DNA of 52,729 nucleotides from positions 1-52,729 of the forward strand of contig JABWCR010000027.1 of assembly GCA_013359125.1 (NCBI GenBank), in the 5' to 3' direction. The translations under genes were made by a program, and so were the position numbers. The stretch is from Armatimonadota bacterium (GTDB lineage: Bacteria > Armatimonadota > Fimbriimonadia > Fimbriimonadales > GBS-DC). This document shows, in pieces, positions 16,314 through 18,597 of this stretch. The notes below the pieces were generated by a model. The model was not told the DNA's origin. It worked only from the letters and a program-made list of their open reading frames with translations, and made no database searches. Every line of letters starts with the position of its first letter. The first letter of the stretch is position 1.

Positions 16314-16347
16314 GACGATCTTAGCATCGATACTGTTTAGTCTGACT

Positions 16348-16358
16348 GTTTAGAGAGC
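16348..16358 (+). repeat. Inverted 11-bp match to the CRISPR-like repeat core
   Basis: GTTTAGAGAGC here equals the core of the CRISPR-like repeat at 16451-16485 read from the other strand. It overlaps a 9-bp direct repeat ACTGTTTAG (16332-16340 and 16345-16353). The match does not extend to the repeat ends, so it may be a worn second copy or chance. Confidence 0.25.
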
Positions 16359-16413
16359 CGAACAGAGCACGTACGGCGGCATCGGGAAACGAACCCGGTT
16401 TGGCTTGCGAGAA

Positions 16414-16443
16414 GCCTCCACACCAAACGGCGGGTGTGGAGGC
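16414..16443. repeat. Perfect 11-bp inverted repeat (hairpin)
   Basis: GCCTCCACACC and GGTGTGGAGGC pair perfectly around an 8-base loop. There is no T-run on either side, so it is not a standard terminator. A close relative, with CCTCCGCACC and GGTGTGGAGG, lies at 45221-45246, which makes it part of a dispersed repeat family. Confidence 0.6.
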
Positions 16444-16450
16444 ATAAAAT

Positions 16451-16485
16451 GTTTCAATGCTCTCTAAACGAGCCTAGGTTGCAAC
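16451..16485 (-). CRISPR. Solitary CRISPR-like repeat remnant
   Basis: A 35-base sequence on the minus strand begins GTTGCAACC and ends GCATTGAAAC, the usual ends of type I/III CRISPR repeats, including the ATTGAAAC tag left on crRNAs by Cas6. Its middle can form a small stem, GCTC/GAGC. Only one copy is seen, with no regular spacers, so there is no working array. It lies 45 bases after the last gene of the Cas6/Csx15 cluster, on the same strand, which is where an array would be expected. Confidence 0.45.
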
Positions 16486-16529
16486 TTTTTGGCGACCTTC
16501 GAGCGAGCATGACCGTACTTGCTCGAACC

Positions 16530-16825
16530 TCATATCCAGTAGAGGCTGACGGGACGCGAGTCTGCCGCCGGCGCTTCTTCCTCTTCGGCCGCCTCTTTCC
16601 ATGCCTCAATGAAGGCTTTGGCCATTGCGGTGGGCGGCCGGTCCCAGTCGGCGTCTTTCAGCGCTTCAATCATCCGCTTGGAGATTTTAGGGTCGACCAG
16701 GTCGGGCAGGTTCTCCAGCGCTTTGAGTTTTCCAGCTGCGGCCTTGAGCGCCAGTTCGCACGGTCGTCGTATCCAAAGGCGCGGCGTTCTTGGCCGTCCG
16801 GGTCGACGACGATCAGCGAAGGCAT
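16530..16825 (-). pseudogene. Small CRISPR-cluster gene, frameshifted
   Basis: The ATG at 16825 lies inside the end of the cas6-like frame and reads MPSLIVVDPDGQERRAFGYDDR. Near 16762 the protein-like reading moves to another frame, CELALKAAAGKLKALENLPD and on to SLYWI with TGA at 16530. Together they make about 98 residues. A one-base loss near 16762 best explains the break; a sequencing error cannot be excluded. The C-terminal half is helical and acidic (EAWKEAAEEEEAP). I do not recognise the family. Overlap with the cas6-like gene suggests it was the last gene of the cluster. Confidence 0.5.
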
Positions 16826-17655
16826 GTGAGCGCCATCCGTCCACAGCCGATGGCGGCTTCCTTTCCCGCGCCCAAGGCATGGGCCCATTTGAGGATGGGC
16901 CAGAGGGTGTCGAACTCGCCTTGATAGATGGCCCAGCCCGTTTGGCCGACGATGCGGGGCGGTCGATTCTTGAGGCGGTTTTTGTCCTGATGTCTTTGCT
17001 AAGATACGGTTTTGGCGCCGACCTCTAGTAGGACGGCGCGCTGATCGGCGGTGCGGTCGTAATCGACCTGGCTCAAAAGCCCTTGGCCGTACAAGTAGTC
17101 CAGGTGTCGGACCAGGCGCGTTCGGACGCCTTTCCATACCGACTCGAAGCTTGGAGGCGATGCGCTCGGCTCGTCGGAAACAAACGGGGTTAGGAAGTCG
17201 ATTCGAACGACGGACGGCGCTGGGCTGCGGCAGGGTTCGGCTTCTTCGGCTTGGGCGTCGATGAACTGATAGCTGCCTTGGGGATGGCCGCCGACTCCGT
17301 TGACCCCGGCCAAGGCGGTTGCCGCGATGACGGCGTCCTTCATGGCGCAGGCATCGCCGATGAGGGTCGCTTCCCACTCGATCGGATCGCCGCTGCGGAG
17401 AAACGGGCAAGAGATTGCGGGCGGCTCCATGAGCAGGGGCGGCGGACGGTTGTCGGGCCGTTGGAACAGGGTGTGAAACAGGAGCTTGTCGGGCGTCGGG
17501 TCGGATCGATAGAGTTCGCGACCGAGGGCCGAATGGAGCGCTGCAGGCAGCCAGTAGGAGCCGTCTGCGCTAACAGCCCTGATCGGACTTAGAATCTGCG
17601 CCTTGAATCGCAGGTTGAGCGCGGTCAGCGTTTCATCGGTTTGGACGTTGTTCAT
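16813..17655 (-). pseudogene. cas6: Cas6-like CRISPR RNA endoribonuclease, interrupted by in-frame TAG
   Basis: Cas6 cuts CRISPR precursor RNA at the repeats. The frame from ATG 17655 reads 218 residues, meets TAG at 17001-16999, then continues in the same frame for 61 residues to TGA at 16813. The parts before the TAG fit the Cas6 C-terminal family: an ALHSALGRELY helix, DPIEWEATLIGDA with GVNGVGGHPQGSYQF, and VVRIDFLTPF. The part after it has the hallmark glycine-rich end, IVGQTGWAIYQGEF then GAGKEAAIGCGRMAL (codons 262-274). The full length of 280 codons is normal for the family. Other genes here stop at TAG, so this is most likely a recent nonsense mutation. The start overlaps the SAVED-like gene by 23 bases. 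Confidence 0.7.
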
Positions 17656-18214
17656 GGGCGTTTTCGGAGATTGTGAAGGTCTGGAACTTGGCAAGGGACG
17701 ATGAAGGCCTTCTTGCGGCGCCGAGCCGGGCCTCGGTCGTTTCGTGCAGCGGCACATAGGTCTCGCCGGTTTTTTGGTAGACAACGACCGTGCAAACGTT
17801 GCGCAGCAGGGCTGGAACGATGGGGGCATAGGCGACCATGCCGGCAAAGAAGTAGTGAACGGCGCGCGTGGGGCCTTGGCCGATCTCTCGCACGCCTTCG
17901 ATCAGGTCGTCCACGATTTTTTCTGCGACGGTTGGGTCGGCTAATATTGCATCGTCGGGCGGACGGTAGTAGTATACGGAGCGCGCGCCGGGTATGTGCT
18001 GTTGGGCGTAGGATAGAACGTCTTGCAGGGGATCGTTTGTCCCTCCGATCCAGACGCAGATGACGGTCGATTGGGAGCGGGCGTGCAGCTTTAGCCGTTT
18101 CAGGCGTTCCTTTCTGTCCCAACAGCGTTTGACCTTGACGACGATGAAAGTTAATACGGCTCCCGCGCCTCCCGTTACGAGGCCCGGCCAATCGATCAGG
18201 TCTTGCAGCTTCAT
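17633..18214 (-). CDS. Membrane protein with SAVED/CARF-like domain
   Basis: A 193-aa protein. Residues 10-28 are one transmembrane helix (PGLVTGGAGAVLTFIVVKV), followed by a basic stretch that should face the cytoplasm. Residues about 48-160 alternate strands and helices and end AVHYFFAGMVAYAPIVPALL, TVVVYQKTGETYVPL. This pattern (h-H-h-F-h-A...A, then h-Y-Q, then YVPL) resembles SAVED domains, which bind cyclic oligonucleotides in CBASS and type III CRISPR immunity. I infer a sensor that acts at the membrane. No nuclease, protease or TIR effector is fused. Start at 18214 with GGAG upstream, two bases after the Csx15 stop. The SAVED call rests on pattern only. Confidence 0.5.
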   Translation of the reverse strand: MKLQDLIDWPGLVTGGAGAVLTFIVVKVKRCWDRKERLKRLKLHARSQSTVICVWIGGTNDPLQDVLSYAQQHIPGARSVYYYRPPDDAILADPTVAEKIVDDLIEGVREIGQGPTRAVHYFFAGMVAYAPIVPALLRNVCTVVVYQKTGETYVPLHETTEARLGAARRPSSSLAKFQTFTISENAHEQRPNR

Positions 18215-18216
18215 GG

Positions 18217-18597
18217 CTATCGCTCCTGTCTGGCTTTGTCTCGGACGGCTTGAAGATTGATAATCTCGGCCAGTTGGAACACGGGAGGGGTCGAATCGGG
18301 CACGGGCTTTAGTCGGACGATGGAGGGGAAGTAGCCCATGCGTCCGTTCAGCTCGGCCAGGGTTACGGCTGCGATGACGTGAAGAGTCGGCAGGCTGACG
18401 AGGATGGGCAGGGTTTGCCATTCTGTACCGCTGAGCCCCGCGGAATCGACCAAGGCTTTGGCCTGTGCGGCGAAGGGCTGGTCGGGGTCGAACTGGGCTT
18501 TGATTTCTGTCTCGCGTTCTATCGAGGCGCTACAGCTCTGTTCGATAGCCACGCGCTGTTCGGGGGTCAACGGATGGCCGAAGTTAATGAGGATCAT
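18217..18597 (-). CDS. csx15: Csx15-like CRISPR-associated protein
   Basis: A 126-aa protein that I recognise as Csx15-like from the opening MILINFGHPLTPEQ, the middle EWQTLPILVSLPTL, AELNGRMGYFPSIVRLKPVP, and the end AEIINLQAVRDKARQER. Csx15 is linked to type III CRISPR systems and has been proposed to be a ring nuclease that removes cyclic oligoadenylate. It is the first gene of the minus-strand cluster. The next ATG follows two bases after its TAG stop. There is no clear Shine-Dalgarno site. No cas10 or csm/cmr gene is in the window, so its signal would have to come from elsewhere, or the module is a relic. Confidence 0.65.
   Translation of the reverse strand: MILINFGHPLTPEQRVAIEQSCSASIERETEIKAQFDPDQPFAAQAKALVDSAGLSGTEWQTLPILVSLPTLHVIAAVTLAELNGRMGYFPSIVRLKPVPDSTPPVFQLAEIINLQAVRDKARQER

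Follow-up and report, generated by a model that had tools for sequence, protein, structure and literature searches.

A solitary CRISPR-type repeat beside a broken cas6 gene in an Armatimonadota genome, probably the relic of a lost array

The draft genome of an Armatimonadota bacterium (GCA_013359125.1; 2.82 Mb in 47 contigs, examined through searches and through selected stretches) carries on contig JABWCR010000027.1 a single element of 35 nucleotides (nt) resembling a repeat of the clustered regularly interspaced short palindromic repeats (CRISPR) type. The stretch analysed, 52,729 nt long and referred to here as the window, holds this element (GTTGCAACCTAGGCTCGTTTAGAGAGCATTGAAAC) on the minus strand at positions 16451-16485, as characterized by direct reading, copy-number search and folding. 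Most probably, it is a Cas6-type CRISPR repeat and the sole survivor of an array lost from the downstream end of a cluster of type III CRISPR ancillary genes, in which csx15 and the gene of a membrane SAVED-like protein are intact and cas6 is broken. A lone repeat beside a broken cas6 is most likely the product of ordinary genome decay and not a new system, and the repeat very probably does nothing at present.

When considered from the point of view of its sequence, the element has GTTGCAACC on one side and ATTGAAAC on the other in the minus-strand reading, which bears out the first-pass annotation in its description of an isolated CRISPR-like 35-mer with the ends of type I and type III repeats. 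It is present in one copy, both in a whole-genome search at up to 3 mismatches and as the only element of the genome that begins with GTTGCAAC and ends with ATTGAAAC; a search for the pattern GTTGCAACN15-24ATTGAAAC likewise returned this single match, with about 0.011 matches per genome expected by chance under a first-order model of the window. The features of a Cas6-type repeat are found together, namely the 8-nt ATTGAAAC 3' handle, a hairpin directly before the handle, and adjoining cas genes. RNA folding predicts a GCUC-(7 nt)-GAGC hairpin (16459-16473, minus strand) that abuts the 8-nt AUUGAAAC handle at 16451-16458, and the stem is flush with the handle in only 3-4% of shuffled interiors. 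A hairpin flush to an 8-nt handle is the arrangement cut by Cas6 in type III and related type I systems. The same ATTGAAAC-type ending occurs in arrays of relatives: TTGAAAC pairs at array spacing (58-84 nt) are found in 10 of the 11 same-family genomes searched, with small counts in some (2 to 6 pairs), and nowhere in the present one, and repeats with this ending were read directly in nine of those ten. Regular spacing with unique spacers, by which a CRISPR array is recognized, is absent here, and since there is one copy and no array-spaced TTGAAAC pair, the 35-mer is classed as a repeat relic and not as an array. No second, degenerate copy was found within 3 kb, the best ungapped match (19/35) being the same as that of shuffled queries.

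Resemblance at the two ends can mislead. A slightly stricter end pattern matched 3 of 113 genomes: the present one, G038, where the matches are true arrays, and G069, where a lone element (GTTGCAACCCCTGTATTACGAGGTTCCAATTGAAAC; contig C56, L010 1501-1536) lies between a metal-related gene and that of a copper-type ATPase, both names being read from the sequence. The G069 element is probably a regulator binding site or operator that mimics a CRISPR repeat, and hence a false positive of the pattern, so that the end pattern alone is no proof and the location next to cas6 bears much of the weight. The G069 case lends some substance to the idea that the 35-mer, too, is a chance sequence or a transcription-factor operator resembling a repeat, as do a stem no stronger than that of shuffled sequences and the failure of every search to find an array of it. 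We nevertheless regard such an origin as unlikely, given the very low number of end-pattern matches expected in the genome and given that the sole match shares its strand with the adjoining cas6, the only generic one found, and has its hairpin flush to the handle.

The cluster in question lies on the minus strand, like the repeat, and comprises csx15, the SAVED-like gene, the generic cas6 and a small open reading frame (ORF), in this order. The shared strand had been noted before and stands, but the distance of 45 bases given earlier is in fact 44 nt when counted from the stop codon of the last ORF. The cas6 gene (16816-17655) matches the generic Cas6 family when read through (PADLOC Cas6, 1.2e-22; Pfam PF10040, 2.4e-8), and is interrupted by one in-frame TAG at 16999-17001. 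The read-through product matches Cas6 along its entire length, and the C-terminal glycine-rich loop GAGKEAAIGCG is still encoded past the TAG. Because the TAG is in frame and coding signal is present before and after it, the lesion is a nonsense mutation; a frameshift in cas6 was considered and rejected on these grounds. The small ORF (16533-16825) sits between cas6 and the repeat, has no family match, and is apparently frameshifted near 16757, where its codon signal changes frame.

Upstream of cas6, the two signalling genes are intact. The first, csx15 (18217-18597), is assigned by NCBIfam NF040560 (1e-43) and PADLOC Csx15 (2.1e-34); Csx15 proteins bind cyclic tetra-adenylate (cA4), which some members degrade (PMC13148439). 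The second (17636-18214) encodes a protein of 193 amino acids with an N-terminal hydrophobic segment and no direct family match, and is called SAVED-like by way of a 37%-identical homologue in G142 that matches PADLOC SAVED_TM (5.6e-21) and PF18145 (4.9e-11) and adjoins Cas10-like and Csm-like genes and repeat-array sequence. This homologue is the only one found among 291 genomes of the phylum. A structure model of the protein was of low confidence (pLDDT, the predicted local distance difference test, 58) and was not used. The 44-nt gap between the small-ORF stop codon and the repeat (16486-16529, minus strand) contains a TTCGAGC..GCTCGAA inverted repeat, and no promoter-like or terminator-like site was found in it. 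The further flanking genes that were scanned matched ordinary chromosomal families or none, with no viral genes seen among them.

Several results speak against the derivation from a lost array. The 35-mer at up to 3 mismatches was not found in 200 relatives, and a looser pattern was absent from the 85k genomes searched and from viral contigs; with no matching array found, the parent array is inferred, not seen. The 44-nt gap holds no recognizable leader. The end-to-end Rfam match to CRISPR-DR54 is sub-threshold (19.9 of 39 bits, E 1.4). Of the small inner stem reported by the first-pass annotation, the GCUC/GAGC pairing exists but is weak, with a predicted energy of -5.6 kcal/mol and a z of -0.28, no better than shuffled sequences. 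The 35-mer is without obvious degeneration, a property not measurable as long as its parent repeat is unseen, and this fits a recent loss but also a retained element. Both the nonsense codon of cas6 and the frameshift of the small ORF could be assembly errors. Finally, the earlier annotation had stated that absence of the sequence from the CRISPR arrays of all relatives would refute its reading, and no array of the 35-mer was found in relatives. As a refutation this is weak, because the adjoining cas6 and SAVED-like genes are also without close relatives in the phylum; for cas6, no convincing close homologue was found in the phylum and none in plasmids, so that the donor lineage appears unsampled. 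The last trace of a lost array, one of the two origins proposed at first, thus remains the best-supported explanation by virtue of its type III neighbours, the Cas6-repeat anatomy, the lack of a ATTGAAAC-type array in a genome whose same-family relatives mostly have one, and the nonsense codon in cas6, although the array itself is unseen.

A real array might also have been collapsed to one repeat during assembly. A draft of 47 contigs leaves room for such an artefact; however, the contig that has the repeat in its interior is 52.7 kb long, no other contig has a full copy (up to 3 mismatches) or an array-spaced TTGAAAC pair, and two other arrays of the genome, with 19 and 33 repeats, did assemble. 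A collapse is accordingly very improbable. These two arrays, on contigs C5 and C35, both belong to other systems, and none of their spacers matches the window at 80% identity. On C5 (1-8300; L093), the type III-A genes Cas10, Csm4 and Csx1 are co-located with Cas1e, Cas2e, Cas6e and an I-E-like array with the repeat GGTTCATCCCCACGTGTGTGGGGC. On C35 (L094), the 33-repeat array is next to a Cas1 match and a protein of 1012 amino acids, taken as Cas9 from its start. Cas1 matches are restricted to two loci, that of Cas1e on C5 and the Cas9-like one on C35, so that no cognate adaptation is evident for the repeat; neither a cognate Cas1 nor a type I effector was detected in the genome, and no cas3 was found above the cut-off.

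On its other side, the repeat is bordered by a dispersed block (16315-16449, without assigned strand) made up of the hairpin AGCCTCCACACCAAACGGCGGGTGTGGAGGC and its flank, 88% identical to C30:96-247. The similarity stops 1 nt short of the repeat, and the C30 copy has no CRISPR repeat alongside. The hairpin (window 16413-16445) has many further copies in the genome. An 11-nt inverted match to the interior of the repeat, correctly located by the first-pass annotation at 16348-16358 (plus strand), falls inside this block, and an inverted match of that length was reached in 0.18% of shuffled 35-mers. At the corresponding site, C30 has GTTCAGAGAGC, with 10 of the 11 bases kept and no repeat there, so that the 11-nt match is no evidence of an anti-repeat, and a function as such was rejected. 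On present sequence grounds, it is likely a coincidence, and remains a small oddity.

The other origin proposed at first, a solo repeat kept as a regulator, found no positive evidence. In that role, the repeat would lie within the 3' end of the transcript of csx15, SAVED and cas6 and be bound or cut by Cas6 in an autoregulatory manner, or would give rise to a CRISPR RNA (crRNA)-like or decoy RNA that loads a type III-B complex encoded on contig C7. That complex is encoded by a type III-B (Cmr) locus (C7:84800-92950; L092) that also includes a Csx1-type CARF-HEPN effector. No array was found there within the 16.8 kb examined and no recognized cas6 lies nearby, and crRNAs from the cas6 locus of the window may at one time have served it. 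The persistence of this effector locus would suit a regulatory repeat, as would the position of the 35-mer on the same strand 44 nt past the cluster and its undegenerated ends and hairpin. However, the cas6 nonsense codon precedes the glycine-rich loop, no promoter-like site lies near the repeat, and degeneration is typical of the functional ectopic repeats on record (PMC9458426), whereas the 35-mer shows no sign of it. Furthermore, the predicted fold of a longer transcript loses the repeat hairpin to pairing with the downstream 11-mer, and the repeat is followed by a dispersed element, where a spacer-like sequence would be unique. A regulatory role of this kind is therefore distinctly unlikely. 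In a particular form of it, the repeat would be a cis-acting Cas6 site: full-length Cas6, produced when the TAG is read through or in sister strains whose gene is intact, would cut the mRNA that encodes it, and a cyclic-oligoadenylate alarm module would in this way be controlled with no array involved. To this we attach very little credence. A functional repeat would mean that a Cas6 target controls an alarm module in the absence of an array, but nothing observed requires that.

Under the derivation from an array, the latter would formerly have stood at the downstream end of the cluster of csx15, SAVED-like gene, cas6 and small ORF, and the cluster would probably have been acquired horizontally. 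All spacers would then have been lost, and all repeats but one, either because repeats recombined with each other or through a deletion that ended at the dispersed block, and the nonsense mutation in cas6 may have arisen before or after this loss. The existence of the array, the manner of its loss and the order of these events are inferred, unlike the sequence of the repeat, its copy number, its neighbours, the broken cas6 and the absence of further such repeats, which are observed. Read in this manner, the locus would be a small, clear case of a CRISPR array that vanishes while the signalling genes, a ring nuclease and a membrane SAVED-like sensor, stay intact.

When compared with Cas6-processed repeats of type III and related type I systems that end in ATTGAAAC, the 35-mer shares the length of 35 nt, the GTTGCAAC start, the 8-nt ATTGAAAC handle, the flush hairpin and the cas6 neighbour, whilst differing in being single and spacerless and in having an inner sequence unlike that of any array found. 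Solitary or ectopic repeats outside arrays are known (PMC10651486, PMC9458426), which raises the question of whether the 35-mer could be an RNA anti-CRISPR (Racr) or a CreTA-type antitoxin RNA. With Racr solitary repeat units it shares the single repeat without a spacer (PMC10651486). In contrast to these, it adjoins cas genes, has no promoter match, and lacks viral genes among the scanned neighbours as well as a matching host array; solitary viral repeats are described as being without association with cas genes (PMC10651486). Carriage by a virus or plasmid and a matching host repeat, which define a Racr, are thus both missing, the scanned neighbours being of chromosomal families or unassigned and no host array having a repeat that matches. 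That neither the host nor its close relatives yielded a matching repeat is enough to make this identity unlikely. With CreTA and the ectopic degenerated repeats (PMC9458426), the 35-mer has in common a position outside an array and near cas genes. Yet it appears undegenerated, and CreTA acts through Cascade, so that a type I Cascade would have to be present in the cell; no type I locus was found in the genome, and no Cas3 above the cut-off. Either identity is extremely unlikely. As for the cluster, its csx15 belongs to the Csx15 ring nuclease family (NF040560, 1e-43; PMC13148439, PMC12409355), with the difference that the type III effector genes of this genome lie on other contigs, whereas in G005 csx15 adjoins a Cmr operon.
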